IMG/VR virus record: IMGVR_UViG_3300022591_000032
Coordinates: 1-36,165 of that record
Strand: one strand, 5' to 3'
DNA length: 36,165 bases
DNA from: a virus
Shown: in pieces, positions 1-25,853 of the stretch
Layout: every line of letters begins with the position of its first letter
Numbering within the stretch: the stretch's first letter is position 1
Position numbers and translations under genes: made by a program
The notes under the pieces: model-generated
Database searches by the model: none
The model's input: only the letters and a program-made list of their open reading frames with translations
Told to the model about the DNA's origin: nothing

Positions 1-637
1 CGTAGATCAAGACGTTGATGCCATCCTTGCGGGCAGCATCGAATACTGCAAAGTCATCCTGACCCCAGATCTTACGGTGAACATAACGCTCAGCTAGCTG
101 CTTGCGTGGAACTGTTGCAAGACGCACGTTGAACACTTTGCCACCGGCTGATGTGGTAACGGCTGGCTCGTCCATTGTTTGTGTTGGAACTGGAACTACC
201 AATGGAACTGTAGAGCCAGACTGACGGCGGTTATCGATTACATATGTTTCCAATGTATCATCTCCAATTAGTATATGGTCATATAGTTCATAGAGTTTAT
301 CTAAGAACGGTGTTGTATCTGTACTTGGGTCAGCCTTGGTATGCTGGTTGCATGCCTTGGTGCCTAGTACAGGAGAATAGCCCTTCTCTGAAATTGCCTT
401 CTCATCTGCTGCCGTAACATATACACCAACAGGGGTCCGTGTCAATTTCTCGTTAGCCTCAATGATGCTATCGAATTGATCGAGTTGTGCTTCTTCCCAC
501 TTGTTGTGTGGGCCTTTGCTACCATCGGTCATTCGTGACCATATCTTGACTCCGCCATTATGTGGTGACATAAGAACTTGACGTCGCTTAGCACCCATAC
601 CTGGTTCGTAAGACTCGGTGAATACTGCTATTTCCAT
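1..637 (-). CDS. AAA-type ATPase, N-terminal part (cut by window edge)
   Basis: This reading frame starts with ATG at 637 after an AGAAAGG ribosome site and stays open to the left edge, so only about 212 N-terminal residues are present. The first 150 residues are not recognised. The last part reads QLAERYVHRKIWGQDDFAVF and ends in INVLIY. In phage MoxR/dynein-type AAA proteins that sequence directly precedes the Walker A loop, so the nucleotide-binding core should lie just outside the window. This is inference from the pre-Walker region. Such ATPases remodel protein complexes, but the phage role is unknown. It is the most downstream visible gene of the leftward operon. Confidence 0.6.
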   Translation of the reverse strand, partial: MEIAVFTESYEPGMGAKRRQVLMSPHNGGVKIWSRMTDGSKGPHNKWEEAQLDQFDSIIEANEKLTRTPVGVYVTAADEKAISEKGYSPVLGTKACNQHTKADPSTDTTPFLDKLYELYDHILIGDDTLETYVIDNRRQSGSTVPLVVPVPTQTMDEPAVTTSAGGKVFNVRLATVPRKQLAERYVHRKIWGQDDFAVFDAARKDGINVLIY

Positions 638-648
638 GTTGTACCTTT

Positions 649-909
649 CTAGTGGTTGTGACCATCATCGAGAATATTTTTCTCGAGGACTACTGCTGCT
701 TCGAACATTGCTACCTTCTGTCTAGGCCATTCAGTGATTAGCTCAAACAAGAAGCCATGCTCTTCGGCTCTTTGCATAACATATGCAATACTATCTTGCA
801 TATCTTCAATGACTGCTTCCTTCATGTCGTCAGGCATTGTCTGTAGTTCATCAATAAAGCTAGAGCTGAACTCTACCTCGTCGTTTTCATCTCCACATTC
901 GTGGCACAT
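649..909 (-). CDS. Small acidic protein with N-terminal CxxC
   Basis: This 86-residue protein starts MCHECGDEND, so it has one CxxC pair at residues 2-5 and a His-rich C-terminus (DDGHNH) that could complete a metal site. The remainder is acidic and predicted helical. The start is well supported by GAAAGGA seven bases upstream of ATG. It lies 11 bases before the AAA-type ATPase gene and is probably co-transcribed with it. I do not recognise the family and assign no function. Confidence 0.7.
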   Translation of the reverse strand: MCHECGDENDEVEFSSSFIDELQTMPDDMKEAVIEDMQDSIAYVMQRAEEHGFLFELITEWPRQKVAMFEAAVVLEKNILDDGHNH

Positions 910-1127
910 GATTGTTCCTTTCTGTTATTAGGTTGGGTTGGCTTGCCTCCGTTGCCTTACAGGGACTGAATGCACATCTCACCTTCTCTTCTCATCTCGC
1001 ATACATTAGTTACTTCGTACTACTAATGCGTGAGCCTATAAATTATTCAGCTCTTGAATCGACTGAGTATGTTTAGAGGTGGGCTTAGCCAACCCCACCT
1101 ATTTGATAGCCATATGGACTATCAAAC
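910..1127. other. Non-coding gap rich in inverted repeats
   Basis: No credible gene is visible on either strand. Three inverted repeats are. TTTGATAG (1102-1109) pairs with CTATCAAA (1119-1126) around a CCATATGG-like centre. AGGTGGG (1077-1083) pairs with CCCACCT (1094-1100). CATTAGT (1004-1010) pairs with ACTAATG (1022-1028). The first two lie directly after the stop of the upstream leftward gene but lack a T-run on that strand. They may be mRNA processing or stabilising hairpins, weak terminators or operators. Confidence 0.55.
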
Positions 1128-1625
1128 CTAGAACTTAACGTATTGTTTCTGTGATTCCCAGGTTGCCCTAGACCTAGATGCGCTTTGTCGAATGACTAAG
1201 CTGTATTTTTCAGGTGTCAATGTCTTATTAACAACAACTGAGTCATACAGAGTTTTAATCATAGAGCTAACTGAAGTAGGCTCTACACGCAATAAGATCT
1301 CTTTGAACAGCTCAACCTCATTAAGTAACAGAGCAATAGAAGCAGCATACTCACAGTACGCTACTTCCCAATTAGTTGCTACTTTTTCTGTAGCACTGAT
1401 TTGTTGCAGAAGCGTTCTAAGTACTGCTTCTTTGTCAGGGCAATCTACGATGTTACCCATTACGGTATCGCGGAATGCGATTGTTTGTGTTGAGACATCA
1501 CCAAAATTCTCTGGAATCATACCGGCCATAAGGTATATCACCGGAGTCTCCGTGTCCATTGCTTTGCTAGCAACGGTTGGCTGCCTGTTATTTGGATTGT
1601 ATCTAGCTGACAGTTTCAACGACAT
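1128..1625 (-). CDS. Hypothetical early-region protein, 165 aa
   Basis: The family is not recognised. The protein is soluble and mostly helical in its second half, with no membrane segment or metal motif. The ATG at 1625 sits nine bases after an AGGA and overlaps the end of the upstream gene by 23 bases, so translation is likely coupled. Its coding sequence contains one copy of the repeated CAACACAAACA motif (minus strand, 1482-1492), read here as STQT. It ends just before a pair of hairpins. Confidence 0.7.
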   Translation of the reverse strand: MSLKLSARYNPNNRQPTVASKAMDTETPVIYLMAGMIPENFGDVSTQTIAFRDTVMGNIVDCPDKEAVLRTLLQQISATEKVATNWEVAYCEYAASIALLLNEVELFKEILLRVEPTSVSSMIKTLYDSVVVNKTLTPEKYSLVIRQSASRSRATWESQKQYVKF

Positions 1626-2328
1626 CTGCCATCATCCTTTCTATTGTTGATTGAGTTGATGTTGTTTGTACGATCTTCCCATCACGTAAGCGAAGTGATT
1701 GACCACTCCATAGCGTACGAAACGGCTTACTACCATAATCGCGCTTTTTAGTGCCATTACAGTAATAACATGTTTGCCCACGTTTTACAGTGTGCCCCAT
1801 TTCATTTCCATGTTCACACGGAATATAATGCCACGTCCTAAACCAAGAAACTTTAGGTTGAGGAGCATCTGGATGAGTAGAGCATTTTTCACCGTCGTAA
1901 TCAAAACAAGTGTCTGGGCTGCACCATGAATCGATAAGACCTGTCTGTGAACAAGTGCGACAGCCCTGAATCTTTGGTGGGGTTAAAGGGGCGTCGAATT
2001 CTTGTAGATAGAATTGCCAGTTACGCTGAAGCACTACAATGCCTGCATAACGATTAATAGTTAGACGAACAGATTGGCTACGCAATGGGTTCCGCCCACC
2101 ACCCCAATGGGTAGTTTGAATGGGGCCTTGAATAGATGTCGTGCCGTCTTTGTAATAGGTTACGAAAGAAGAAGTGTGACCGGAATACTTCCAACCAATA
2201 TGGATTGGACTACTTGCATCCCACTTGTTATCTCTCCAGATGCGAAGATTTCTATCGTAAAGTGGGCGCTCATACTTCTTGCGACCTCCTTTAAGAAAGT
2301 CATCTGCCCAACTCCAATCATGAGCCAT
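1603..2328 (-). CDS. Cysteine-rich hypothetical protein, 241 aa
   Basis: The N-terminal half is rich in Trp and Tyr (for example MAHDWSWADDFLKGG) and looks like a compact beta-rich domain. The C-terminal half has clustered cysteines: CRTC near residue 145, further Cys around 157-172, a CEHG near 193 and CYYC near 210. That suggests two zinc sites. The start overlaps the upstream stop as TAATG. I do not recognise the family. Zinc-dependent nucleic-acid or protein binding is possible but unproven. Confidence 0.7.
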   Translation of the reverse strand: MAHDWSWADDFLKGGRKKYERPLYDRNLRIWRDNKWDASSPIHIGWKYSGHTSSFVTYYKDGTTSIQGPIQTTHWGGGRNPLRSQSVRLTINRYAGIVVLQRNWQFYLQEFDAPLTPPKIQGCRTCSQTGLIDSWCSPDTCFDYDGEKCSTHPDAPQPKVSWFRTWHYIPCEHGNEMGHTVKRGQTCYYCNGTKKRDYGSKPFRTLWSGQSLRLRDGKIVQTTSTQSTIERMMADVVETVS

Positions 2329-2636
2329 TAATCAACCTCCTCATAAAATAATGATAGCTTGTTTGCCTGTTGTAAGTCAAACATGCGCTCACGCATAGCT
2401 TCAACATCTCTAGCAGGCTCATCCTCCTCATAAAAGGATAGGCTGATAGGGTATGCATAGGCATCTTTCTCAGGTGACTTAGTCAAGATATTTAAGGCTA
2501 AGCCAAGACCATCAATGATGCCAGAGCTATACGAACGCATTACTTGACTATCATTGAATTGATTATCTTGATGTTCTTCGAACATCAGTTGGTTTATCTG
2601 CTGCACTACACGCTTGGTTCTAATGAACGGCCGCAT
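2328..2636 (-). CDS. Hypothetical protein, 102 aa
   Basis: This small, acidic, mainly helical protein has no recognisable motif. The ATG at 2636 follows a GGAGG six bases upstream, and a strong hairpin with a T-run lies just ahead of it. The gene may therefore be transcribed from its own promoter or by read-through. It is coupled to the next gene by a TAATG overlap. Function unknown. Confidence 0.65.
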   Translation of the reverse strand: MRPFIRTKRVVQQINQLMFEEHQDNQFNDSQVMRSYSSGIIDGLGLALNILTKSPEKDAYAYPISLSFYEEDEPARDVEAMRERMFDLQQANKLSLFYEEVD

Positions 2637-2651
2637 GTTGCCTCCTTATAT

Positions 2652-2681
2652 GAAAAGCCCCCGCCATTGCTGACGGGGGCT
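2652..2681 (-). terminator. Rho-independent terminator, minus strand
   Basis: On the minus strand AGCCCCCG pairs with CGGGGGCT around a 10-base loop and is followed by TTTTC. It lies between the stop of the 88-residue gene and the next leftward gene, so it can end or attenuate early transcription. Confidence 0.8.
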
Positions 2682-2698
2682 GGTTTGTTTGTGTTGGG

Positions 2699-2965
2699 TT
2701 ACGGTACTTCGATATCTAACTGGTCAATCAAAGTATCCATAGCCATGTTGCAATCGGCTACAAAGTATGCATACGATGCAACGTTGTGGTCAACGATAGG
2801 CCTAATCTCTAGGCCTGCAATTGCCAGTGCGTCACGAATCTCACCGGGGTCAACCTCTGACCCACCAACCTCAATCTCTTCAGCTAGTCGGTTGGTGTAT
2901 TCGATTTGATTTTCAATACGTTGTTTCATCTCAACGTACTTAGGATCGAGTGCTGTTGTGGACAT
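2699..2965 (-). CDS. Hypothetical protein, 88 aa
   Basis: The protein begins MSTTALDPKYVEM and has a helical N-terminal half (MKQRIENQIEYTNRLAEEIE) typical of a short coiled coil. A compact C-terminal region follows. I chose the ATG at 2965 over a longer upstream frame because GGAG lies six bases before it and the extension is low-complexity Ser/Thr. It ends 18 bases before the terminator hairpin. Family not recognised. Confidence 0.65.
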   Translation of the reverse strand: MSTTALDPKYVEMKQRIENQIEYTNRLAEEIEVGGSEVDPGEIRDALAIAGLEIRPIVDHNVASYAYFVADCNMAMDTLIDQLDIEVP

Positions 2966-2975
2966 TGTCGCTCCT

Positions 2976-3422
2976 CTACTTGATGTACTTGAAGAGGTTG
3001 TTCTTGATTGAGACTTTAATCTCATCTTCTTCAGCTGTCTTGAATGCAGCAATATTAGCCTCTAACTCATCGATAGGGCTATTATTGGTGCGGTAGTCTT
3101 GAAGATCCCATGTGGGACGAGAGACCTGAGTTGGATAGTCACCAATTGCATTAATCAACAGTTCATTCGCATCAAGAGTGAAGCGAACAACCGGTGTGTT
3201 GTAATGTCTGTTGACATAGACTGAGGTCTCATCATCAATGATTGAGGCCGCATTCTTTTTAAGCCAAGCACGGGCTTTCTTTTCCCATGCTTTTTGCTTA
3301 CCGTTGAGAGACTTGTTTTCCTTCTCCCAATCGGCTATCTCTTTCTTCATTTCACTGACACGAGTTTCCAGTTTCTTTACGATAACTGAACGCTTGAACG
3401 TCAGGGATGTTGTTGTAGCCAT
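2976..3422 (-). CDS. Coiled-coil hypothetical protein, 148 aa
   Basis: Residues 10-60 form a Lys/Glu-rich coiled coil (KKLETRVSEMKKEIADWEKE). The rest is a mixed alpha/beta region with a second helical stretch near the C-terminus. The ATG follows GGAGG by seven bases. The gene sits between other unknown leftward genes with short spacers. The overall pattern suggests a small DNA- or protein-binding factor, but I cannot assign a function. Confidence 0.7.
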   Translation of the reverse strand: MATTTSLTFKRSVIVKKLETRVSEMKKEIADWEKENKSLNGKQKAWEKKARAWLKKNAASIIDDETSVYVNRHYNTPVVRFTLDANELLINAIGDYPTQVSRPTWDLQDYRTNNSPIDELEANIAAFKTAEEDEIKVSIKNNLFKYIK

Positions 3423-3433
3423 TGGCTACCCTC

Positions 3434-3742
3434 CTATTTACTCGGTGGTGTTACAGGGATTCCTGCAACATATTCATTCTCTTGATTATCTATAACCAAG
3501 AGTGTGTTGTTGATGTAGGCATCACCAACAGGAGTTTGGCTGATCATTGCGTAAACCAAGGCGCTCTTCAAACTCTGAAGCTCATCTTCGGTAAGGTGCA
3601 AGAGGTCTGATTTTACTAACTTATCAGCCATACCGATAGCCCGACCAGCGCACTCTAGACGAGTGGCATCTTCGGTCTGGTTATCGGAATACTGTTTTTC
3701 TTTCAAGTAGTCTAATGAATAGACTCTGAGTTGCTCAGGCAT
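3434..3742 (-). CDS. Hypothetical protein, 102 aa
   Basis: This is a mainly helical soluble protein (MPEQLRVYSLDYLKEKQYSD) with no recognised domain. Its ATG lies inside the last codons of the upstream gene (8-base overlap), which indicates translational coupling. It is followed after 11 bases by the coiled-coil gene. Function unknown. Confidence 0.65.
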   Translation of the reverse strand: MPEQLRVYSLDYLKEKQYSDNQTEDATRLECAGRAIGMADKLVKSDLLHLTEDELQSLKSALVYAMISQTPVGDAYINNTLLVIDNQENEYVAGIPVTPPSK

Positions 3743-4010
3743 TTACCTTACCTGGCAATCTGAAGACATTGTTCTCCTTATCCCAGATAAGGCCTGTCTT
3801 CCAATGAGGGATTGATTCGTGCATATAACGACCGCCTTTAGCCTTCCAAGCCTCACGCTTTTCATGACTGTTGGCTGTGCGACCATTTACATGGGTGAAG
3901 TTTGTCTTCTCCATCTGTGCTGGTCCAGGATTCTTTTTGAATGCTTTGCCATTGGGACGATTGTCCCCGCTACGTGCTTTAACTACAGGTGCTGCTTTAC
4001 CTTTTGCCAT
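3735..4010 (-). CDS. Small basic hypothetical protein, 91 aa
   Basis: The N-terminal third is strongly basic and probably unstructured (MAKGKAAPVVKARSGDNRPN). The C-terminal part has aromatic and charged residues (HWKTGLIWDKENNVFRLPGK). The ATG follows AAAGGGG. Nucleic-acid binding is plausible from composition only. It overlaps the next gene by eight bases. Confidence 0.65.
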   Translation of the reverse strand: MAKGKAAPVVKARSGDNRPNGKAFKKNPGPAQMEKTNFTHVNGRTANSHEKREAWKAKGGRYMHESIPHWKTGLIWDKENNVFRLPGKVNA

Positions 4011-4032
4011 TTGATTGGCCCCTTTCGGTGGG

Positions 4033-4182
4033 TTAGTTAGTCTCTACACGGTCGTGTAGAGTGTCGATGCCTTCATCCCAAATCATCAATGCTTCTTTAC
4101 GACTGAGGCCGTGGAATAACTGAGCCTCTACTAGAAACAGATGCTTGGTAATGAAGGTGTCGGTGATTGTTTGTGTTGGCAT
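4033..4182 (-). CDS. Very small protein, 49 aa (MPTQTITDTF...)
   Basis: The ATG at 4182 follows AGAAAGGAAAGCA, the same start signal used by several neighbours, so I accept this short frame. The product begins MPTQTITDTFITKHLFLVEA and is helical. The PTQT codons are one copy of the repeated CAACACAAACA motif. The 3' end contains an 8-bp hairpin (4042-4049 with 4054-4061). No family is recognised. Confidence 0.6.
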   Translation of the reverse strand: MPTQTITDTFITKHLFLVEAQLFHGLSRKEALMIWDEGIDTLHDRVETN

Positions 4183-4202
4183 TGCTTTCCTTTCTATTAT
4201 GA

Positions 4203-4493
4203 GAGTAGGCGCCCCAATGTCGATGAATACTCTCTGACCGCTTACCTTACGGCAGCCGGTACGCTCCCCATACTTATTAGAGGTATTCCTCTGTACGTTT
4301 TGGTTGTTGGCGGTTCGGGATTTCTTCTAGTGACGGTAGCGCCTACTCAATGAGCAGTTTTAATTGTCGTACTCAGGACATTTGGTGTAGGCGAAAATCG
4401 ATAGGTTTTCCCACCCGAAGGGTCCCGCCTATTCGAGAGTGCCATACCAATATTGGTGGGGTATGTTTTACCTTAGGTCTTACCCCAAAGACC
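4203..4493 (-). ncRNA. Candidate structured RNA, about 290 nt
   Basis: There is no convincing gene between 4183 and 4501, but several inverted repeats stack up. A perfect 10-bp closing pair joins 4203-4212 (GAGTAGGCGC) to 4339-4348 and encloses a hairpin at 4279-4292. TAGGCG (4388-4393) pairs with 4426-4431 around an inner ACCC/GGGT hairpin (4413-4423). CATACC (4443-4448) pairs with 4460-4465, and GGTCTT (4476-4481) with 4488-4493. The minus strand is assumed from the surrounding operon. It could be a stand-alone RNA or a long structured leader of the 49-residue gene. I could not match it to a known RNA family. Confidence 0.45.
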
Positions 4494-4501
4494 AAACGAG
4501 A

Positions 4502-4708
4502 TTACAGGATAGTCTGCCAGGCAATGAGCTGAATGTTACGCTCTTGCTCTGTCATAGTTACCGGAGTCTCTCGTGTTGATTCGTAGCAACCTTCCCAAGT
4601 CTCGTGGAAATACATTGTGCCACCACGGGCACTAATGTCTAACTTGGATTGGTGTGGTTGGACACGCCTACCACAATTGCCACAGTAATGCACGGCGGAT
4701 TTCGCCAT
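4502..4708 (-). CDS. Small zinc-ribbon-like protein, 68 aa
   Basis: The product opens MAKSAVHYCGNCGRRVQPHQ, with a clear CxxC knuckle at residues 9-12. A possible second ligand pair lies further on (HETWEGC, residues 35-41), consistent with a small treble-clef or ribbon fold. The ATG follows GGAGG by seven bases. It is the gene just before the hairpin-rich gap. Zinc binding is inferred; the role is unknown. Confidence 0.7.
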   Translation of the reverse strand: MAKSAVHYCGNCGRRVQPHQSKLDISARGGTMYFHETWEGCYESTRETPVTMTEQERNIQLIAWQTIL

Positions 4709-4723
4709 TGCGGTACCTCCTTC

Positions 4724-4897
4724 TTAGTAGGTACATCCCACTTGCGTGGGAATATTAATACAGATGGGGATTGCTACGCAACCCCCATGCTGTCGTTTAT
4801 ATGGGCTCAAAGAGGGAATTGGCGAGCCAGTCTGTTCCACAGCCCACGAAGTCTGCGGGAAACAATAAAGGTACTCAGAACCAATGACATAGCACAT
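4724..4897 (-). CDS. Hypothetical small protein, 57 aa
   Basis: The ATG at 4897 follows GAGGAAAGGCA, matching the start pattern of neighbouring genes, and the frame ends just before the ribosome site of the next gene. The product (MCYVIGSEYLYCFPQTSWAV...) is rich in Cys, Pro and aromatics. A longer frame overlapping this stretch lacks a ribosome site and has unlikely composition. Family not recognised; moderate confidence that it is translated. Confidence 0.45.
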   Translation of the reverse strand: MCYVIGSEYLYCFPQTSWAVEQTGSPIPSLSPYKRQHGGCVAIPICINIPTQVGCTY

Positions 4898-5014
4898 TGC
4901 CTTTCCTCACTGCTCAATTCAACAACTCGATGTGCCTTCATTGGTTGTCTATACAACCAGCACCCACTCAGTACAAGACGGGGTGAGCACTGACGGTATA
5001 GGCGCGGGGAATGT

Positions 5015-5269
5015 TTATGTTGGGCTGTTGCCATTCTTCTTAACGCATTCAGGATTAGCACCGAAGTCACATAATACGTGACCCATAATGTCTATGTATA
5101 TAGACGCATTCATAGCCAAATCTTCTGGGTGATGCAAAGACTTATTACCTAATGAACCCCAGTTCTTATATAGATATTCTTTGAGTCCTGGCATAAGTAT
5201 GGTGATGAACTCATCAACTGTCATGTAGCCTGCCTTGCGTAGGCTTGCATCTGTTATTTCTTTAGCCAT
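5015..5269 (-). CDS. Hypothetical protein, 84 aa
   Basis: The product (MAKEITDASLRKAGYMTVDE...) is helical and neutral with no known motif. Two in-frame ATGs exist. I prefer the one at 5269 because AGGAGG lies nine bases before it but touches the ATG at 5278. The last codons read CCAACATAA, a one-base variant of the repeated CCAACACAA motif in which the change creates the stop codon. Function unknown. Confidence 0.65.
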   Translation of the reverse strand: MAKEITDASLRKAGYMTVDEFITILMPGLKEYLYKNWGSLGNKSLHHPEDLAMNASIYIDIMGHVLCDFGANPECVKKNGNSPT

Positions 5270-5270
5270 C

Positions 5271-5543
5271 TTAATCATCCTCCTCTGTGATTAGTTCTTC
5301 ACCTGGTACAAAAATAATGCGGGGAATTTGACCCACATCTTTAATAGATTCTGCCCATACTTTTGTTATCTGTAGGATACGTTCATCAGTTGGGTAGAGG
5401 TCTTGCAGCAACTGCTTCCATGTATAAGTCCATGAACCGTCAGAGCCACAGATGTTCCAGCCATAAGGCCCTCGTTGCCAAGCACAGGCAAAGCCATCTA
5501 GTAATACTGAGCCAATAGGCGGTTCTTTCATTTTCTTAACCAT
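5271..5543 (-). CDS. Hypothetical protein, 90 aa
   Basis: This is a compact protein with aromatic-rich N-terminal beta strands (FACAWQRGPYGWNICGSDGS) and an acidic C-terminal tail (EELITEEDD). It starts in a TAATG overlap with the upstream gene, with GGGAG five bases before the ATG. A GTG two codons upstream is possible. Family not recognised. Confidence 0.65.
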   Translation of the reverse strand: MVKKMKEPPIGSVLLDGFACAWQRGPYGWNICGSDGSWTYTWKQLLQDLYPTDERILQITKVWAESIKDVGQIPRIIFVPGEELITEEDD

Positions 5544-5797
5544 TACCACTCCCTATGATTGTAGGTGTTTAGGGCATCTTGAAGGTTGTCAAAATAATCT
5601 CCACGAGAGCAGGCTCCGGTGGCGTGTGTGTATGTCCATACAACAAATGGGTGTATAGGGCTATTGGGTGCTAGGCACAGTACCACATCGGTGTATTCGT
5701 CGGCTTGTTTGTGTTGGAGCACTGTGGCACCGGCAGATGTACCGTTACCCTCTATAACAATGCCGGGCTTGATAGTACTGATATCTTTTGGTCTCAC
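5543..5797 (-). CDS. Hypothetical protein, 84 aa, GTG start
   Basis: The start is GTG, overlapping the upstream stop as GTGA. The sequence MRPKDISTIKPGIVIEGNGT reads as a small beta-rich fold. It contains a CAACACAAACA copy in a different reading frame from the other genes (LQHKQ here rather than PTQT). That shows the conservation acts on DNA or RNA, not protein. Function unknown. Confidence 0.65.
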   Translation of the reverse strand: MRPKDISTIKPGIVIEGNGTSAGATVLQHKQADEYTDVVLCLAPNSPIHPFVVWTYTHATGACSRGDYFDNLQDALNTYNHREW

Positions 5798-5934
5798 TTA
5801 TTTACCTCCGTTAGCACCTTGTTGATGAGTTTGAGCATGTGTACATCTATTTGTACTTGGGCAAGTGATAGTTGTTGTTGATTTACTGAGTTTTCTAAAG
5901 CCTCAATACGGTCCTGCATTTCCTTGTTAGTCAC
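5794..5934 (-). CDS. Mini coiled-coil protein, 46 aa
   Basis: The start is GTG, and the frame overlaps both neighbours by a few bases. After MTNKEMQDRIEALENSVNQQ the whole protein is one amphipathic helix with heptad-spaced Leu, Ile and Val, so it probably dimerises. The tight start and stop overlaps on both sides support real translation despite its size. Function unknown. Confidence 0.55.
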   Translation of the reverse strand: MTNKEMQDRIEALENSVNQQQLSLAQVQIDVHMLKLINKVLTEVNK

Positions 5935-6070
5935 GGTTTATCTCCTTTTTCCATAGGTTACGCATGCGCTTAGACCAACGCTTCTTGTTGGGTAAGGAAC
6001 CCGCTGCATTGGAGCGACGCAATTGCTGTACTCGCTTGATCCTGTCCTTGTTGGGTGAGTTGCGGAACAT
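5927..6070 (-). CDS. Very basic mini protein, 47 aa
   Basis: MFRNSPNKDRIKRVQQLRRS and the following residues are rich in Arg and Lys, suggesting nucleic-acid binding. A GGAGG six bases before the ATG supports the start. A CCAACACAAACA motif lies about 14 bases upstream. The gene overlaps the 3' end of a 76-residue frame by 101 bases in another reading frame; both have good ribosome sites. It is coupled to the next gene through an overlapping GTG start. Confidence 0.55.
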   Translation of the reverse strand: MFRNSPNKDRIKRVQQLRRSNAAGSLPNKKRWSKRMRNLWKKEINRD

Positions 6071-6200
6071 GGGCGCCTCCGTGTGTTTGTGTTGGTTGAG
6101 CCATCACCGCTTTGATGAGGGCAAGACATAGCATGTGCTTATCATGCAATGTGATAGTGCCGGTCTTACTTATCTTGGCTGACACCTGTATAGTGTGCAT
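5970..6200 (-). CDS. Hypothetical protein, 76 aa
   Basis: The ATG at 6200 follows AGAAAGGAAGGCA, the strong start signal shared by several leftward genes. The first 35 residues (MHTIQVSAKISKTGTITLHD) look like an ordinary folded protein. The C-terminal half is Gln/Thr-rich and overlaps the basic 47-residue gene in another frame. It follows a terminator hairpin, so it may open a new transcription unit. Function unknown. Confidence 0.55.
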   Translation of the reverse strand: MHTIQVSAKISKTGTITLHDKHMLCLALIKAVMAQPTQTHGGAHVPQLTQQGQDQASTAIASLQCSGFLTQQEALV

Positions 6201-6221
6201 TGCCTTCCTTTCTTGTGAGGG

Positions 6222-6264
6222 AAATAGAAAGGGCGGGGAGAGCCCCTCAACTCTCAACCCGCCC
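6222..6264 (-). terminator. Rho-independent terminator, minus strand
   Basis: On the minus strand GGGCGGG (6264-6258) pairs with CCCGCCC (6237-6231), with an inner GAGAG/CTCTC pair, followed by TTTCTATTT. A second perfect hairpin (GTCTGTA with TACAGAC, 6269-6286) lies just upstream. It should separate the WhiB-like unit from the downstream leftward genes. Confidence 0.8.
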
Positions 6265-6293
6265 TGTTGTCTGTATAGATACAGACTGCTCAA

Positions 6294-6670: not shown

Positions 6671-6962
6671 AGCATTCCTTTCATAGAGGGGTGATTTCTG
6701 CGAAAAACGGCGGGGAAACTAAGATACTCTCACATAAGATAGAGAGTGAGAGAGACATAGGGCATAGATTGATTACACAGACTTACTCATACTCTTGGCT
6801 GCAGCCTCAATGACGCGTAACCTATGTCTCTTCCACTAACTACCTGATAATAGACCGGTAGGGTAGTCCCATAGAAACTACCTGATAGCAGAGCCACCCC
6901 ATAGTCCCTGACCTGGTCTCACTCTCAATGATGGGAGTTATGTGACGACAGTAGCCTGAAAG

Positions 6963-6996
6963 GGCTCCCAACTCCCAATGATGAGAGTTAGGAGCC
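6963..6996. terminator. Strong bidirectional hairpin
   Basis: GGCTCC (6963-6968) pairs with GGAGCC (6991-6996), with an inner AACTC/GAGTT stem. It is flanked by AAAGG before and CCTTTC after, so either strand gives a hairpin with a short T-stretch. It may end the leftward transcript of the 178-residue gene, or it may be part of a larger RNA fold. Confidence 0.4.
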
Positions 6997-7123
6997 TTTC
7001 GTGTAGCAGGACACCGAATATGGATAGGCTACTTCTCTCTGGGGCGGTGTAACACTTCCATACACCTGTGTATTTGGACATAATGTCCCCTAGGTTGAGT
7101 CTAGACTCCCCGATAGCCCGTAT

Positions 7124-7150
7124 CTATGAACATAGTAACTATGCTCATAG
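7124..7150. promoter_or_regulatory. Near-perfect 27-bp palindrome, operator candidate
   Basis: CTATGAACATAGT (7124-7136) and ACTATGCTCATAG (7138-7150) are inverted copies with one mismatch around a single central A. The size and symmetry suit a dimeric repressor site. A perfect 12-bp palindrome lies 16 bases to the left. No protein is assigned. Confidence 0.4.
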
Positions 7151-7195
7151 CAGGAGAGCCGGAGTATCCCCCGACTCCCCCACTACTAGCATAGG

Positions 7196-7732: not shown

Positions 7733-7746
7733 ATTACTCCTTACTA

Positions 7747-7765
7747 CCGATACAGATAGTATCGG
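7747..7765 (-). promoter_or_regulatory. Leader hairpin before the 178-residue gene
   Basis: CCGATAC (7747-7753) pairs perfectly with GTATCGG (7759-7765) around a 5-base loop, 15 bases upstream of the ATG. It sits just before the ribosome site and could control translation. Confidence 0.45.
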
Positions 7766-7773
7766 GGGTACTA

Positions 7774-7827
7774 CCCGTGCCCTAGTGTGCTATGACGCAC
7801 TACACCTAGAAGTGCTAGGGCGACGGG
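7774..7827 (-). ncRNA. Candidate three-way-junction RNA in the leftward leader
   Basis: A 12-bp closing stem forms from 7774-7785 (CCCGTGCCCTAG) and 7815-7827, with one bulged G at 7822. Inside are two short hairpins: GTGC/GCAC (7787-7800) and CAC/GTG (7803-7814). The fold resembles a small riboswitch or a tRNA-like element in the 5' leader of the first leftward gene. No ligand or family is recognised; the fold is by eye. Confidence 0.45.
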
Positions 7828-8196
7828 CTATACACAGAGAGGTTCGCCTATCCTATTAGGGCGATACTCACCACTATGTGGTTTTCTCTCCCTTCTCCTT
7901 CGGGCTGTCCGTAACTTTAGTCTAATTTTCGCTTTTACCCTCCCCCACCCTTAAATCCCTTTAATCCCTTTTGTCCAGCAGAGCGCACGAAGGGTTGGGA
8001 CTCTATGATGGTAGACAGTGGCCTACCGTCTATGTCCGATTTATCATGGTTTGTCCTATTCTGATCATAATTTGGTGAAAAATGGGCGGGAAATTGGGTA
8101 ACTCTCATCATAGTTATGAAATTTCTAGGAGAGAAAAGGTACATTTATAACTTTTTGTTAGGTTTTTAATAAATTTACTGCGATACAGTGGCTAAA
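7828..8196. other. Divergent intergenic region
   Basis: No convincing gene is seen. Features include TCGCC/GGCGA (about 7844-7864), an ACCAC-TAT-GTGGT hairpin followed by TTTTCT near 7871-7886, a C-rich stretch near 7930-7950, and a stretch at 8074-8106 resembling 6700-6732. The right end is A+T-rich (8110-8196). It should contain the leftward and rightward early promoters and could hold an origin. Confidence 0.45.
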
Positions 8197-8210
8197 TGTG
8201 GTAGAATATT
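8197..8210 (+). promoter_or_regulatory. Extended -10 promoter box, copy 1
   Basis: TGTGGTAGAATATT contains TGG-TAGAAT, which fits the extended -10 consensus TGnTAnnnT. No good -35 is seen 17 bases upstream. It lies about 60 bases before the Hsp20 start. The same 14 bases recur at 8787. Confidence 0.55.
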
Positions 8211-8211
8211 T

Positions 8212-8270
8212 AATAGAGCGCTCAAATAGAGGCTCTATTTAGCTAATTTATCGTCTAAGGAGATAAAATT
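8212..8270 (+). promoter_or_regulatory. Structured 5' leader of the Hsp20 gene
   Basis: AAATAGAG and CTCTATTT form an inverted repeat at about 8224-8240, and an upstream AATAGAG offers an alternative partner. Nearer the gene, TTTATC (8247-8252) can pair with GATAAA (8262-8267), covering the 3' half of the AAGGAGA ribosome site. The weak A/U stem over a Shine-Dalgarno is what an RNA thermometer looks like, and the gene encodes a heat-shock protein. This is inference. Confidence 0.35.
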
Positions 8271-8935: not shown

Positions 8936-9007
8936 TGGTCGTTAGCTCATTGGTAGAGCGCCCTACTCATAATCGGGAGGCGCCTGGTTCGATTCCAGGA
9001 TGACCAA
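8936..9007 (+). tRNA. tRNA with CAT anticodon (Met or lysidine-type Ile)
   Basis: A full cloverleaf can be drawn. The acceptor is TGGTCGT/ATGACCA with discriminator A9007. The D stem is GCTC/GAGC. The anticodon arm has loop CTCATAA with one T-C mismatch in the stem, the variable loop has five bases, and the T arm is CCTGG-TTCGATT-CCAGG. The 3' CCA is not encoded. The U1-A72 pair argues against a standard initiator tRNA. Elongator Met or Ile2 cannot be separated by eye. Confidence 0.92.
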
Positions 9008-10221: not shown

Positions 10222-10788
10222 ATGACTACGCTTGCTGCAATACAAGGTGACGGCTGGGCCGTCTTAGGTTGTGATAGCCGCGCTTCTGATGAGGGCGGGC
10301 GTTATATGGATCTTGCTACACATAAGATCGTAGAAAACAATGGAGCGCTTATTGCTGTCTCCGGAGCATCCCGCGGTGGAAACATCGCACAGTTTGGGTG
10401 GAAAGCTCCAAAACCTCGCGCTAATGAAGATCTAGATGTTTTTATGACTACTAAGTTCATTCCTTCCCTACGTAAAGCTTTTCAAGATGCTGGGTATGAA
10501 GGTAAGGATGATGGTTCTGCTGCTGGGCATGACTCAAGCCTTATTGTGGCTATACGCGGCGTAATCTATCCGATCTTTGAAGATTACTCTTGGGATCGTG
10601 AAGCTCGCAATGTTTACTATTCTGGTAGTGGTGGGGACATCGCGCTAGGTGCTTTAGAGATTTTAAACTACCAGAAGCTCAAATCTCCCGAAGCAGCAGA
10701 GAAAGCTGTATATAAAGCCATAGAAGCGGCCATAAAGCACGACATTTACTCCGGCGGAGAGATTCATACATACGTACAAGAAGCCTAA
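10222..10788 (+). CDS. Proteasome/HslV-like Ntn hydrolase
   Basis: After removal of Met the chain begins TTLAAIQGDGWAVLGCDSRA, which aligns residue for residue with the start of HslV and proteasome beta subunits. Thr1 would be the nucleophile, Asp17 sits in GCDSR, and Lys34 (HK-I) takes the place of Lys33. A later SGSGGDIALGALE matches the conserved G-S-G region. Length (187 mature residues) is in the family range. No propeptide is present. No HslU-type ATPase is seen nearby. With no other head protease in view, it may mature the capsid or degrade host proteins. Confidence 0.85.
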   Translation: MTTLAAIQGDGWAVLGCDSRASDEGGRYMDLATHKIVENNGALIAVSGASRGGNIAQFGWKAPKPRANEDLDVFMTTKFIPSLRKAFQDAGYEGKDDGSAAGHDSSLIVAIRGVIYPIFEDYSWDREARNVYYSGSGGDIALGALEILNYQKLKSPEAAEKAVYKAIEAAIKHDIYSGGEIHTYVQEA

Positions 10789-10855
10789 CTTATGTCATCA
10801 TTGTCCCTGTTCGACCTTCGAACACTCACATTGATCAAGTGAAGGAAATAAATTC

Positions 10856-12172
10856 ATGGCAAATGCACGCGATGGAGGATCGTCAGTATCAGTTGCAATC
10901 TCAGGCATCACAGCCTCAGCTGGAACTGTAACTTACGCAACCTCAAGCACAACCGGCCTATTTGCAGGCCAAACAATTACAGTATCAGGAGCGACTGCTT
11001 CCGGATATAACGGAACATTTACAATTGCTGCTGTTTCAGCAAACACCAATTTCACAGTAACTAGCGCAGCTACAGGCTCAACCTCAACAGCTACAGGAGT
11101 TGGTTACACAGGAAATCCACGCATCGACATGGCATGGGGTAGCTTCCCAATCCAACCAGATGATGACCGTCAAGTTTCACCATCTCAGACTGTAACAGTC
11201 AGCGGAGCAGGAAACGTTGCTTGGACTAACTACGGAACTCTTGCTTCTGCTAAGTTGGCTCAATCAAACATTTCTTCAACTCTTAACCAGCTTACTGGCG
11301 TAACAGTTCCAGATAACCACGTACGTGCTGCACAGAACTGGGATTCATACCCAGCATCACCTACTCAAACCGGTATCCCAACATCTTCTACAGTTACAAC
11401 TGTCCCAGCTCTTCTTGGAACAACTTTCAAGTATGCAGTAGATAAGTTGCACGATGCAGGATTTGACCTCGGAAGCCTTACTTACACCACAACTGGTGCT
11501 ACACCTAGCGATATCCGTGTATCTGTAACAGGTGCATCTAACTCCGCTGGAACAATCACCTACACAGCTGCAAATAACTTCGTAGCTGGTCAGATTGTAA
11601 GCGTTGTTGGTCTTGGCGCAACTGCTACACCTACACTTACAGGCGCTACCGTTTCAGGTACAGGAACATCTACAACTGTAACATTCAACACTTCAAATAC
11701 CACAGGTATCGTAGTTGGATCGATTGTTACAATCGCAGGTGCTACTGGCGCAACTGTCGGTACTCTTAACGGTACATGGTACGTAAGTGCTGTTGTTGCT
11801 AACACCAGCTTCACCGCTGCTGTAGCTGCCCCAGCATCTATCACAGCCGCTTCTCCAGTATTCACAAGCGCTACTGTTTCAGTAGTTTCTGGATTCAACC
11901 TTGCAAACCAAGTTGTTCTTGCTACAAGCTTGAGCTCATCTCAGTTCTTGGTTACCCCAACAATCTCTGCAAGCACAACTCTCCCATCTGCAGCTCTTAC
12001 AACTCAGACAGGTACAGCTTCAGTTCTTGCTAACGTTGGAACCATCAAGACTCAGTCACTATCTGCTGGTTCATCTTCAACTCAAGGAGCATCAGTGGAT
12101 CTATCGATCTACCGCTTCCAAGATGGAACAAACCCAGGAATTGTCGTTCCTGGTGGATATGTAGCTGGATAA
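10856..12172 (+). CDS. Beta-module virion-type protein with a PASTA-like segment
   Basis: The 438-residue protein is Thr/Ser/Ala/Val-rich. Residues about 20-75 form a module (FAGQTITVSGATASGYNGTF) of the kind annotated in phages as E1-FCCH-like. Related strands recur near 245-265 and 285-325. Between them, about 185-210, VPALLGTTFKYAVDKLHDAG reads like half of a PASTA cell-wall-binding domain. Codons are those of the capsid gene (AAC, TAC, TTC), suggesting strong late expression. The gene is followed at once by a strong terminator. It could be a decoration or tail protein that touches the host wall; inferred. Confidence 0.65.
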   Translation: MANARDGGSSVSVAISGITASAGTVTYATSSTTGLFAGQTITVSGATASGYNGTFTIAAVSANTNFTVTSAATGSTSTATGVGYTGNPRIDMAWGSFPIQPDDDRQVSPSQTVTVSGAGNVAWTNYGTLASAKLAQSNISSTLNQLTGVTVPDNHVRAAQNWDSYPASPTQTGIPTSSTVTTVPALLGTTFKYAVDKLHDAGFDLGSLTYTTTGATPSDIRVSVTGASNSAGTITYTAANNFVAGQIVSVVGLGATATPTLTGATVSGTGTSTTVTFNTSNTTGIVVGSIVTIAGATGATVGTLNGTWYVSAVVANTSFTAAVAAPASITAASPVFTSATVSVVSGFNLANQVVLATSLSSSQFLVTPTISASTTLPSAALTTQTGTASVLANVGTIKTQSLSAGSSSTQGASVDLSIYRFQDGTNPGIVVPGGYVAG

Positions 12173-12186
12173 CCTACCTCGTAAAG

Positions 12187-12214
12187 AGCCGGGAGTTAAC
12201 GCTCCCGGCTTTTT
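12187..12214 (+). terminator. Rho-independent terminator, plus strand
   Basis: AGCCGGGAG (12187-12195) pairs perfectly with CTCCCGGCT (12202-12210) around a 6-base loop, followed by TTTT. It ends the transcript of the beta-module protein gene. Confidence 0.92.
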
Positions 12215-12236
12215 GCTTTAGTGAGAGAATACTCTT

Positions 12237-12482
12237 ATGCATCCTAAGAAACATCAGCACAAGTACCCTATGCGAGACGTCGCAACCGCAGGACGTCTTG
12301 AAGGCACCCTACTACCTGCAGCTACAAGCTGGTATAATTCTATGTGGGGTGTTGGAGATGGAGCACTAAGCACCTACACAGGTGTCGATATGGATGCCCC
12401 TACTGGTCAGGAGAATGAAAGTGTCGAGTCTAGCGAACCCGCCTCAGCCACTTCTACAGGAGCAGCAGCGGGTCCAGTGTGA
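12237..12482 (+). CDS. Hypothetical protein, 81 aa
   Basis: The product (MHPKKHQHKYPMRDVATAGR...) has a His/Lys-rich start, a Trp-containing middle and a Ser/Ala-rich tail. No family is recognised. It follows the terminator, so it must use a promoter between 12215 and 12236 or read-through. Its 3' part overlaps the next gene by 62 bases in another frame. A TGGTATAAT string inside it could start transcription for the genes downstream. Confidence 0.55.
   Translation: MHPKKHQHKYPMRDVATAGRLEGTLLPAATSWYNSMWGVGDGALSTYTGVDMDAPTGQENESVESSEPASATSTGAAAGPV
12330..12338 (+). promoter_or_regulatory. Possible intragenic extended -10 promoter
   Basis: TGGTATAAT is a perfect extended -10 sequence inside the 81-residue gene, placed to serve the following zinc-protein gene and cluster. 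No clear -35 is present, and it may be chance within coding sequence. Confidence 0.25.
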
Positions 12483-12627
12483 CGGCTGCTCAGCCAGGGC
12501 TTCTACAGTAGTTTCGCTCCCATACGGGGATTTATCTTTTTGTAACCATCACTATAATAAACACGCTCATGTCCTTACAGAACAAGGCGGAGTTGCTAGA
12601 CTTCTGGGTATATCAGAGGAAGATTAG
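12421..12627 (+). CDS. DUF7455-like small zinc protein
   Basis: The pattern CDGCSARASTVVSLPYG then LSFCNHHYNKHAHVL matches small actinobacterial and actinophage proteins of the DUF7455 type, with a C-x2-C and an F-C-x-HH zinc site. I chose GTG at 12421 because AGGAG lies seven bases upstream; the ATG at 12415 is too close to it. It overlaps the upstream gene out of frame. The family has no settled function, but its presence supports an actinobacterial host. Confidence 0.75.
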   Translation: MSSLANPPQPLLQEQQRVQCDGCSARASTVVSLPYGDLSFCNHHYNKHAHVLTEQGGVARLLGISEED

Positions 12628-12634
12628 GATTAAC

Positions 12635-13327
12635 ATGCCAAATAACCCATACTTCAGTAACGTAGTAAAGCCAAACTCCGGAGGCGGCCGTAGTGGTGGC
12701 GGATTCGTAGGGAAGATCATTGGCGGACTTGCTCAAGAACACAGAGCTAAAATGCAGCATGAATATGCTGCTGATCTGATTAAGCAAAGAGCTGTTGGAG
12801 AAATTGTCTCAAAGATGGCAACATCCTCTATCGCATCTGAATCTGAAAAAACAGATATGGAAAATCGTAGAGAACATTACAAAACTTTAACTGATGATAT
12901 TCACTCACACCTCACACCGGAAGAACGCAAAGCTGCGGGTATTGGAAATATTGATCCATTCCTAGTAGGTGGAAAAGACTTCCAGCAACTTGGTCAGTCT
13001 CGTGTTGGCCGCATCAAGCCGGGTGAAAACCCTGCTGGTGGCGGCAAAGGTAACGCTAATCCAAATGACGCTATGGATACAAGTCGTTCTAATGATGACT
13101 CTTCATTTACAGACACGTACGATGACGAAAATACTCCACCTAAACCACAGCCTAGCCCAACACCGGATACATTTACAGACCAAACTCCTCCACAGGCTGC
13201 TGCAGCTAAAAAGACACCTCGTAAGAGAAGCGCTGCAAAACCTAAAGCGGATACTTCTACATCTAAGGCTCTGTCTTCAAAGAGCGTTACTCAAAATATT
13301 GCTGATTCAAATAAGGAGGACAACTAA
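12635..13327 (+). CDS. Hypothetical protein with disordered basic tail, 230 aa
   Basis: The product begins MPNNPYFSNVVKPNSGGGRS and has a helical middle (about 30-110). From about residue 125 it is low-complexity Asp/Ser, then Pro/Thr, then Lys/Ala-rich, ending in a basic stretch (KKTPRKRSAAKPKADTS). I took the ATG at 12635 after TTAGGA rather than an upstream in-frame start. It is joined to the large 976-residue gene by TAATG. Placement with virion-type genes suggests a structural or injected protein, but no homology is recognised. Confidence 0.65.
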   Translation: MPNNPYFSNVVKPNSGGGRSGGGFVGKIIGGLAQEHRAKMQHEYAADLIKQRAVGEIVSKMATSSIASESEKTDMENRREHYKTLTDDIHSHLTPEERKAAGIGNIDPFLVGGKDFQQLGQSRVGRIKPGENPAGGGKGNANPNDAMDTSRSNDDSSFTDTYDDENTPPKPQPSPTPDTFTDQTPPQAAAAKKTPRKRSAAKPKADTSTSKALSSKSVTQNIADSNKEDN

Positions 13328-16257
13328 TGTCAGAGCGCGGTAAAAAGGTAAATAAGAACAATCCTGCCGTACGTCAAGCACGTGGGGCTAAAAAGCGTGC
13401 CGCAAAGCAAGAACGCGTTGAAAATATTGTAGAAGCTACGCAAGGTCTGCCTGCTCGTGAATCTGCTGCTCCTAATTTAGATTTCCCTGAAACACAGTTA
13501 GTTGGCGGTTCTGCGGGTGAGTCTACCTCTATTCCTACTTGGACGCCTCCTTTAGAGACTGCTGAAATGTCTGATGAAAAGAAGGCTGAAGTTCGTGAAA
13601 CTCTTAAAGCAGATGTAGGCAAGTCTGAAAAAGGCAAGGCTCGACGTAGACAAGAGAAGTCTCAAACTAAAGCTGACGAAGCAATCATTGCTGAAGCAAA
13701 TCGTGAAAAGACCCCAGCAGAGCAAGAAACATACGATGCTAATGCCGCTGGAGTATCTGTAGGAAGTTTACGTGCTGTACGTCAAGGACGAGCAAGCTTT
13801 GTAGATCAAAAGCCAAAAGAGAAAAAGAATCTTGTACCTTTAGATGTTCCAGCTGCTGAAGCTGATCAACCACGTAATCTAGCAAATCCTACTGGAGCAG
13901 GTAACTTTATCCCTCTAGGTGAAGCTGCACGCGGTAATCGTGCTCAACCAGTTAGTGCAGCTACTGAAGAAAATACTGTTGACCGTATTAAGTCAGGTAT
14001 GGGTGTTTCAGGCCTTCAAGAAGGTACAAGCACTGAAATAATTAACCACCCAATTCATGGAGAGATGGAAGTATCTGCAGATGTTGCACGTGCACATCGC
14101 CTATATGACCTCGATTGGAACAGAGATCCTGCTCGAGCTAACCGCTTAGCCGGTGTTGGACGAGATGATTATGCAAGTCCTTATCAACATAAGGGCGGAC
14201 ATTATGAGCGTCTAGGTCGCCTTCAAGCTGCGGGAGAAAATCCAGATGATATTTCAACCTATGCTCGTAAAATGGGCAAGACTATGTACGATGTTGTAGA
14301 AGGTCGTCATGCACTTTTGCAGGATAAGATCGACTCTACACGCATGGTCAACTACGGTATGCAGCATTTGCATCCAGAAGATACCTTTACTCACCCAGAA
14401 ACAGGGGAAGCCCATCCAATAAGTGAGTGGTCTACTAAACACAACATGCCTCTTACTCCAGAAGGTCATCCTGATCTTTCTGCTACAAAAGGCACGAACA
14501 CATCTATCTATAAAGATCAAAACGGAAATCTTCAGACAACAGTCCCTACACACCTCGGTTGGTGGAAAACACCTACTGATGGAAAGTCAGGACGTGAAAA
14601 TCTAGGAGAACGCCCAGGTAACTGGAGCTTTAGAACTAGTGTTCCTGCATTAGATGCTGCCCCAAGCACACCTCCAGTATCTGCATATGACTTCACATTG
14701 CAGCAGACTCGAGAAGCTATCCCACTAGGATCTAAGCAAAGTCGTGCAGAGATTTCACAAGCTGCTCGTGCAATGGCTGCTATTCATGCAGCAAGTGCGG
14801 GGGTATCTACTCCGGGCAGAATTTCTACATCACAGATTACAGACCCAGGTACTGGTTTAGCACTTCCTGAACCAGTTGAAAAAACTACTGGTGCTCGTCC
14901 TACATATATAAAGACCGGTAATCCCGCTGATCCAAAAGTCTATACTCGTAGCGAGCTAGGTGAAGGAATCAACCACCTTGTTTCTAAGCAATTAGCTGCA
15001 TCTGTAGGTGGCGGACCAGAATCTTCTACCGGAGAGATTACAAGAAGCGGAGATGTAGCCACTACTGGCGATACCGCTCCTACTCAAGGTCGTTCAAGAA
15101 GCTTTGTACCTGCACCAATCGTGTCTAATAAAACAGATGCGGCATCCGCATTTCAACCATCAGAGGCAGTTGTTTCTGGAACAGGAGAAGAAAACAAGGC
15201 GTTGTCTGATAAGTTAACTGGTCAAGCAGATGAACTTGATTCAGCTAAGCTAACTACTGCTGCTATGGGAACTGCTCCACAGGAGAAAGCGCTAGAAGCG
15301 CCTTCATTCCACGTAGATGAGTCTGGCAACCCTATTCCACAAGCACCTAAGGTAGGTCGTTCAGGACAGCGTCGTACGTTTGTTAGTGGACGTACTACAA
15401 ACGCTCCTCGTGGAGCACGTCAAGCATCTATTATTTCATCCTTTATTCCGGTACATAATCCTCCTGTAGGCGCTGAAGGCCCAGTAGTTAGTTCAGGTGT
15501 CAGCGCTAAACCTGCTCGTAGGCACAAGAGAACTGGAGAAGTTCTCGAACCTGAGCGTAAAGCAATTCCAGGATTGACTGGAAGCAGCACTCCGCTAGGA
15601 GGTCGGGCACAATCTGTACAACTTGAACTCCCAGAAATTGGACAAGCTGTTGCTGGAGGACAAAAGCGTTTACTTAAGCGAGGAAACCCAGCTGCTGGTA
15701 CATCAAATGTTTACGGCATAGATCCTAATACTTCAACTATGGCTAATGATTCCTACAGAAAACAAGCTGAGGCGGAACTTGCTGAAGGTAGAGAAAAAGA
15801 ATCTGCTCCTACAATGACTGCTAGTGCTGCAAGTAAGTTCAGCAGAATTAACCTAGAGGACAACCCAAAGCAGGCTCCTGCTCAACCTATGTTGGATTTT
15901 GGACAACCAGAACGCGAAGAGGAGCAAAAGCAGCTTGCTGCTGGAAAGATCACTCATCGTAGCGGCGAACAATGGGGCTTCCTAGATAAGCGTTGGCTAG
16001 GCAATGTAGGTACGGAAAATACCTCAGAAGAACTAGAACAAGATCTAGCTGCTGATAGGCGTTCAAAGTCTTCTGAAAAACCTCGTAACCCAGTAGCTGC
16101 GCCAGCAGGACTTCCTAAGGCTGGTCCTAAATCTGCTCCGGTTGATACTACTGGTGCGGTCCCAGCTGCTCAGCGTATTCTTGGTGAAATGCATGGAAGC
16201 AAGCAGATCCAAGATGCTTTGACTAAACTTCGCGGTGCTCAATCTACTGAGGAGTAA
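13327..16257 (+). CDS. Giant low-complexity protein, 976 aa
   Basis: No catalytic motif, membrane segment or signal peptide is visible. The N-terminal 200 residues are Lys/Glu/Ala-rich and start with a basic stretch (RQARGAKKRAAKQERV). Residues about 235-430 look the most folded, with conserved-looking aromatic and His residues (for example HRLYDLDWNRDPARANR). The remainder is Ser/Thr/Pro/Gly-rich and probably disordered. A GGAGG precedes the ATG. It may be an injected or internal head protein. A low-complexity scaffold is another possibility. Function unknown. Confidence 0.7.
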   Translation: MSERGKKVNKNNPAVRQARGAKKRAAKQERVENIVEATQGLPARESAAPNLDFPETQLVGGSAGESTSIPTWTPPLETAEMSDEKKAEVRETLKADVGKSEKGKARRRQEKSQTKADEAIIAEANREKTPAEQETYDANAAGVSVGSLRAVRQGRASFVDQKPKEKKNLVPLDVPAAEADQPRNLANPTGAGNFIPLGEAARGNRAQPVSAATEENTVDRIKSGMGVSGLQEGTSTEIINHPIHGEMEVSADVARAHRLYDLDWNRDPARANRLAGVGRDDYASPYQHKGGHYERLGRLQAAGENPDDISTYARKMGKTMYDVVEGRHALLQDKIDSTRMVNYGMQHLHPEDTFTHPETGEAHPISEWSTKHNMPLTPEGHPDLSATKGTNTSIYKDQNGNLQTTVPTHLGWWKTPTDGKSGRENLGERPGNWSFRTSVPALDAAPSTPPVSAYDFTLQQTREAIPLGSKQSRAEISQAARAMAAIHAASAGVSTPGRISTSQITDPGTGLALPEPVEKTTGARPTYIKTGNPADPKVYTRSELGEGINHLVSKQLAASVGGGPESSTGEITRSGDVATTGDTAPTQGRSRSFVPAPIVSNKTDAASAFQPSEAVVSGTGEENKALSDKLTGQADELDSAKLTTAAMGTAPQEKALEAPSFHVDESGNPIPQAPKVGRSGQRRTFVSGRTTNAPRGARQASIISSFIPVHNPPVGAEGPVVSSGVSAKPARRHKRTGEVLEPERKAIPGLTGSSTPLGGRAQSVQLELPEIGQAVAGGQKRLLKRGNPAAGTSNVYGIDPNTSTMANDSYRKQAEAELAEGREKESAPTMTASAASKFSRINLEDNPKQAPAQPMLDFGQPEREEEQKQLAAGKITHRSGEQWGFLDKRWLGNVGTENTSEELEQDLAADRRSKSSEKPRNPVAAPAGLPKAGPKSAPVDTTGAVPAAQRILGEMHGSKQIQDALTKLRGAQSTEE

Positions 16258-25826: not shown

Positions 25827-25853
25827 GGGGGAGGCAGTAGCCCTGTCTCCCCC
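25827..25853 (+). terminator. Hairpin after the capsid gene
   Basis: GGGGGAG pairs with CTCCCCC, with an inner CAG/CTG pair. No T-run follows (ACCCC), so it may protect the capsid mRNA 3' end or partly stop transcription. Confidence 0.5.

Follow-up and report, generated by a model that had tools for sequence, protein, structure and literature searches.

The repeat and its surroundings in the window

The DNA analysed here (the window) is a 36,165-nucleotide (nt) stretch of viral sequence, IMG/VR record IMGVR_UViG_3300022591_000032, in whose left, early arm an 11-base word, TGTTTGTGTTG, recurs in a single orientation. The window holds six exact copies, all on the plus strand, where 0.04 (standard deviation 0.20) would be expected. 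On the transcribed, minus strand the word takes the form YCAACAYAAACA(A)nCCC. The copies, given in this sense form, and the hairpins next to them lie as follows, with open reading frames abbreviated ORF.

176–186, minus strand: motif copy, CAACACAAACA (sense), inside the MoxR/CobS-like ATPase ORF 2–637; encodes PTQT in a variable linker
1482–1492, minus strand: motif copy inside ORF 1128–1625; encodes STQT
2653–2681, minus strand: intrinsic-terminator-like hairpin, AGCCCCCGTCAGCAATGGCGGGGGCTTTT, folded at -22.9 kcal/mol; begins 4 nt past the 2686 copy
2686–2696, minus strand: intergenic motif copy with a stop codon 2 nt before it (TAAcc-motif)
4168–4178, minus strand: motif copy in ORF 4033–4182, directly after an ATG (M-PTQT)
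5012–5022, minus strand: C-to-T variant, CAACATAAACA, the sole real variant in the window
5706–5716, minus strand: motif copy inside ORF 5543–5797; encodes QHKQ
6084–6094, minus strand: motif copy inside ORF 5970–6293 (PTQT); overlaps the neighbourhood of ORF 5938–6129
25827–25853, plus strand: hairpin GGGGGAG...CTCCCCC between the major capsid protein gene (24724–25818) and ORF 25884–26252
25855–25864, plus strand: degenerate motif, CCCCAACAAC, adjoining this hairpin on its 3' side

None of 100 dinucleotide shuffles reached six copies, Markov simulations of the left arm with orders up to 4 never gave more than one, and the word is the commonest 11-mer of the window, no other being as frequent. 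Together with the same-composition word test described below, these results rule out chance or base composition as the origin of the repeat. An earlier, sequence-only reading of the window had reported the six copies, all on one strand, with a further G in five of them; both claims hold, the extended form being TGTTTGTGTTGG. It had placed the variant at 5013–5023, one base off its actual position. Its statement that the right arm lacks the word is correct for exact copies; behind the capsid gene, where the relatives G039 and G026 have a hairpin and an exact motif, the window holds a hairpin and a decayed word. Counting with up to two mismatches, which the same reading had proposed, gave 17 matches in the window against 13.3 expected, a background level at which the clear excess of exact copies over shuffled sequence is lost, and therefore only exact or near-exact copies were counted.

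Conservation of the word

The window is a fragment of a phage of about 100 kb: its terminase relatives in IMG/VR include contigs of 93–105 kb. Among cultured phages, Streptomyces phage BRock and its kin come closest, with 48–49% terminase identity over 70% of the protein and about 70% for the capsid protein. All motif-bearing groups examined have many core genes in common with BRock, which is described as a virulent myovirus with no lysogeny genes (PMC7453282). The exact word occurs in 21 of 46 records, many of them short, that were selected by terminase and thus independently of the motif. A second set of relatives, selected by the motif, served mainly to describe anatomy and enters the orientation tally in part. 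Genes were called with a simple home-made caller, which misses small genes.

Alignment of 63 array sites, chosen as CAACA[CT]AAACA, gave the consensus YCAACAYAAACAAnCCC, that is, YCAACAYAAACA-A-n-C-C-C, with two degenerate pyrimidine positions and an avoidance of T over several bases downstream. In the 40 nt ahead of these sites and the 50 nt behind them nothing else is conserved; no column exceeds 0.2 bits from -40 to -2, nor past the 3' extension to 50 nt downstream. Across 77 kb of array sense strand, all seven single-base relatives carry C to T at position 6, with none of the other 32 substitutions there and none on the opposite strand. At some sites this change provides the TAA stop codon of an overlapping ORF, as at window position 5012 for ORF 5015–5278.

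The sequence-only reading had argued from two reading frames (P/S-TQT at 176, 1482, 4168 and 6084; QHKQ at 5706) and the intergenic copy at 2686 that DNA or RNA, rather than protein, is conserved. The relatives bear this out, since the word is kept there beyond coding constraint and the third frame is used too: in-gene copies fall in codon frames 1, 2 and 0 in 43, 17 and 3 cases. These three frames and the intergenic copies rule out the peptide PTQT as the conserved unit. Intergenic copies often lie exactly 1 nt past a stop codon (16 cases), and the 2686 site has orthologous TAAc-motif sites in G035, G020, G044 and G037. The hairpin at 2653–2681 is common to G035 and G020 and weaker in other relatives. 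In the MoxR-like ATPase gene the copy is fixed at nt ~450 within a linker, where the residues on either side diverge and CCA/TCA-ACA-CAA-ACA stays constant; for the window's copy at 176, relatives hold the word at the matching gene position (nt 451). That exact letters are kept through all three coding frames while their flanks diverge argues that something reads the word. In relatives a vWA (CobT-like) gene follows the MoxR/CobS-like ATPase gene, and both hold a copy at a fixed in-gene place; these two gene labels were assigned by eye from sequence.

Evenly spaced arrays on the sense strand of one operon

In the larger relatives, 6–12 copies stand on one strand, mostly ~0.7–1.8 kb apart and typically ~1.1 kb, and are then followed by one copy on the opposite strand. 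The array sits in a single operon opposed to the rest of the genome, with the copies on its sense strand. Counting copies in distinct contexts in all genomes except G067/G069, which are described below, 148 of 155 are sense and 7 antisense. The sense copies comprise 72 in intergenic regions, 63 in ORFs and 13 at convergent junctions, each of these last at the 3' end of the operon to which it belongs; no copy in this tally lies in a divergent intergenic region. The uniform orientation and early-arm concentration seen by the sequence-only reading thus extend to the relatives, where orientation follows transcription. Outside the arrays, 670 kb contain 16 sense and 0 antisense copies; over the full set of 330 words with this composition the means are 0.61 and 0.13 respectively, and the motif ranks first among them. 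One of the few exceptions to the sense rule is itself conserved, an antisense intergenic copy, ctttgccCAACACAAACAaggcatt, at L417 (G092) 4790 and L436 (G091) 9515.

The arrays are also far more even than random placement would produce. The mean coefficient of variation of the spacing is 0.29, compared with 0.84 for random placement, and 0 of 10,000 simulations were as even. Single arrays of 9–12 sites reach P values from <0.00005 to 0.0026, and the seven sites of the window P = 0.026. The arrays cannot be counted as wholly independent of one another, since several phages have orthologous sites in matching positions.

The flipped copy, hairpins and terminators

The opposite-strand copy that ends the array lies between the array operon and a converging ribonucleotide reductase (RNR) operon in all seven phages examined closely. 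In each it stands just past the last stop codon of the RNR operon, and the shared terminator hairpin follows it directly. Since it is on the strand of the converging operon and precedes that operon's terminator, the flipped copy is sense for its own operon. A downstream hairpin of -12 kcal/mol or stronger accompanies 92% of the 13 convergent sites and 8% of controls. The 72 remaining intergenic sense sites have one in 21% of cases, against 8%, and for them a rank test on the energies was not significant. Upstream hairpins of this strength occur at 25% of sites and 12% of controls (P = 0.0007).

Many intergenic stray copies show similar company. They lie directly before terminators in G037, G025, G034, G064 and G085 (3–15 nt ahead in G034, G037, G064 and G085), directly after hairpins in 5' untranslated regions (UTRs) in G039, G026, G064, G092 and G059, and in hairpin loops in G059. 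Hairpins are found at about a fifth to a quarter of the intergenic sense sites, and their side and distance vary. Even spacing, the flipped copy at a convergent terminator, adjacency to hairpins and terminators, and the membership of the window in a ~100-kb phage all go beyond the sequence-only reading.

Diverged and reversed forms

The relative G010 (65% GC; L149, L154) lacks the exact word. In its equivalent operon, at 103–105 kb and 0–14 kb, the dispersed word that ranks first is CAACCCAAAAG, present on one strand (sense), and three of its copies are centred in hairpin loops (2164, 4098 and 7336). A wider scan with the G010 word pattern, CCAACCCAAAAGCC, yielded apparently mostly chance hits among the matches listed. 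In BRock the early operon has a faint GCAACACCA only, with four copies there and none elsewhere, which we do not claim as equivalent. Among the papers listed in a literature search, the motif strings turned up only in seemingly unrelated ones, and nothing was found in the literature on repeats in BRock.

In G067 and G069 the identical 11-mer, with the same flanking preferences, belongs to a ~70-nt intergenic element with a hairpin that is G-rich (C-rich in sense). Each gene is preceded here by TGTTTGTGTTG and then a conserved leader, which together give a composite promoter/leader-like element. Thirteen copies of this structured element occur in early-operon intergenic regions of L384 (G067; 10554–16098) and L385 (G069). 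Their order is TGTTTGTGTTG, a short stem (8 copies) around a CCACCCTCCC loop, a GGGA(G) stretch and AGAGAGAG. The stem arms vary and are mostly complementary (GGCAC/GTGCC, AGAC/GTCT, GAAC/GTTC, AGTC/GACT, GACA/TGTC), and the GGGA(G) stretch could pair with the loop. The leader-like element is possibly a new regulatory RNA.

Other features of the window and its family

Among ten early-arm ORFs searched against Pfam, WhiB was the only match. From the WhiB gene, the low GC content and relatives taken for freshwater contigs, the hosts are probably actinobacteria of freshwater type. WhiB as a lead to relatives found none, and neither did scans of genome contigs (terminase, RNR) for relatives in host genomes. 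Two family-wide core genes, present in BRock too, encode a protein of the SpoVS family (Pfam E = 1e-25) and one of MerR-like helix-turn-helix (HTH) type (a weak match, below the Pfam cut-off); in G020 coordinates (L139) they lie at 49986–50264 and 57441–57953, and nothing links either to the motif. At the head of the window's leftward operon are two long, apparently non-coding stretches, 7735–8270 and 6675–7195, with many inverted repeats by eye and no Rfam match. A tRNA gene lies at 8936–9007 (Rfam, 56.4 bits). The late arm has a second repeated word, CAAGGTTTACAAGG / CAAGGCTTACAAGG / CAAGGCGTACAAGG, with 3–4 copies of each.

Comparison with known directional signals

Stoperators of L5 and other Cluster A mycobacteriophages, to which the sequence-only reading had likened the word, are also short asymmetric repeats of actinobacterial phages that are oriented with transcription and often lie between genes. 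Asymmetry and orientation are thus common to both. The motif described here is 11–12 bp long and unrelated in sequence, is evenly spaced and often inside ORFs, adjoins hairpins and terminators, and is concentrated in one operon. Stoperators include operators in promoter regions, where no copy was found here, and belong to temperate phages with integration; no tyrosine or serine integrase (PF00589 or PF00239) matched in 17 large relatives, whose contigs may be incomplete. Membership in the stoperator class is therefore not supported on these two counts, and by our analysis the mode of action may still be alike. Stoperators are further marked by an orientation-dependent stop of elongation and by an immunity repressor that combines an HTH with a stoperator domain and binds the site; the only match noted here in that direction is the weak MerR-like one, with no structure-based search aimed at such a repressor.

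The same reading had also suggested start-associated sequences (SAS). Those of Cluster K phages too are short asymmetric repeats, mostly in one orientation, and their extended form (ESAS) adjoins an inverted repeat. SAS (GGGATAGGAGCCC) lie immediately upstream of start codons and are linked to translation initiation (PMC3203893). The word here is not tied to start codons: many copies are in ORFs, before terminators or 3' of the last gene, and the consensus has no Shine-Dalgarno core with which a ribosome could pair. Nor does it have the two boxes at a fixed distance of a sigma70-type promoter.

Antitermination sites of the nut, put and boxA type (lambda, HK022, rrn) are directional signals at the transcript level that target polymerase during elongation and in some cases adjoin a hairpin, with one or two per operon. 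The present word may share this directional action; it differs in its letters, in its many evenly spaced copies and in having no constant hairpin, such as the boxB that lambda-like nut sites, which recruit an antitermination complex, hold at a constant distance from boxA. The ops-type sites are short asymmetric words of ~12 nt on the non-template strand, read by NusG paralogs such as RfaH that ride RNA polymerase. Their sequence is different, and the word here has many copies per operon; no NusG paralog was identified, though no search was aimed at one.

Discussion

Our leading, though tentative, interpretation is that TGTTTGTGTTG forms the central part of a cis-acting element, YCAACAYAAACA(A)nCCC, kept across a virulent BRock-like phage family. 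This element could well be a co-transcriptional, sense-strand signal acting on elongation or termination. Sense orientation on both sides of the convergent junction, conservation of the letters, even spacing and adjacency to terminators together point to a signal read as polymerase passes. The word would be read along transcription, most likely in nascent RNA or the exposed non-template strand, by a putative sequence-specific factor of phage or host. Copies every ~1.1 kb would let this factor act repeatedly on elongating RNA polymerase, through pausing, termination, release or their prevention, and single copies against terminators or hairpins elsewhere would tune 3' ends and operon boundaries. 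From these patterns we infer co-transcriptional reading, an action on elongation and its sign, for which we favour a stop or termination, given the copy placed right at the end of the converging operon. A further reading, possible but rather doubtful, is periodic control, in which exact copies within and between genes mark the whole operon evenly, a factor is loaded onto or stops polymerase about every kb, and the same word at terminators marks operon ends.

Several observations weigh against a signal in the sense transcript. In G067/G069, 13 of 16 copies are antisense to genes. We cannot fit this reversed element to a model based purely on sense RNA. It is the chief contrary evidence, and the case for DNA recognition, or for a second role of one and the same reader, rests mainly on it. 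The array sites are no more unpaired than motifs planted at random places (0.78 versus 0.76, P = 0.12), which lends no support to selection for extra unpairedness, and in a strand test based on G-U wobble the hairpins beside sites are not more stable on the sense than on the antisense strand (7 of 20). Finally, very similar traces would be expected from a directional road-block bound to DNA. Pairing of a phage-borne antisense RNA with the motif was considered and rejected, the complement being almost never in sense in the main family.

We rank such a road-block second, after the co-transcriptional signal, and consider it unlikely. A phage protein on an asymmetric double-stranded site would halt polymerase from one side and silence the operon, which fits the asymmetry, the orientation with transcription and positions near stop and start codons like those of L5 stoperators (PMC9283540), and the conserved MerR-like HTH protein, weak as its Pfam match is, might supply the binder. 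Such a silencing role sits poorly with the virulence described for BRock and the integrase result, with the empty divergent regions, where L5 has operators, and with copies deep in ORFs or in hairpin loops. More improbable is a signal for RNA processing or decay, with an endoribonuclease cutting, or a protein protecting, an unstructured A/C-rich word for early mRNA shut-off or cistron separation. The unpaired A/C-rich core, the sense orientation, the placing of sites directly behind hairpins and ahead of ribosome-binding sites, and a coverage of every ~1 kb of early mRNA are all consistent with this; yet no phage nuclease is tied to the word, a cut at the flipped copy would remove the protective terminator hairpin, even spacing is not required, and the G067/G069 copies are reversed.

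Still less probable is a promoter or a site bound by a regulator, which might give rise to transcripts that run antisense to the early operon. The position of TGTTTGTGTTG ahead of the leader in G067/G069 would suit this, but the main family has no conserved second box, transcripts started at the flipped copy would run into a terminator or antisense to the end of the RNR gene, and stray late copies in 5' UTRs point in the non-firing direction. A site for recombination, replication or other DNA handling (a module boundary, or a Chi-like or uptake-like word) seems very improbable. It would be asymmetric, dispersed and T/G-rich on one strand, as the word is, and alignments do end within 15 nt of a site slightly more often (4.3% versus 2.2%); a conserved word in diverged sequence yields that excess by itself, and the fixed places in conserved genes, the concentration in one operon and an orientation that tracks transcription where operons converge all argue otherwise.

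Among isolated actinophages, just a few groups are known to have directional repeats of the stoperator or SAS kind. The family that the present word marks is largely uncultured and is common among metagenome contigs of freshwater type, and the exact word flags its members in metagenomes. As a 12-nt bait the word is a concrete handle for fishing out the factor that reads it. Its even spacing is an unusual constraint and a pointer to the way in which long phage operons have their transcription controlled.

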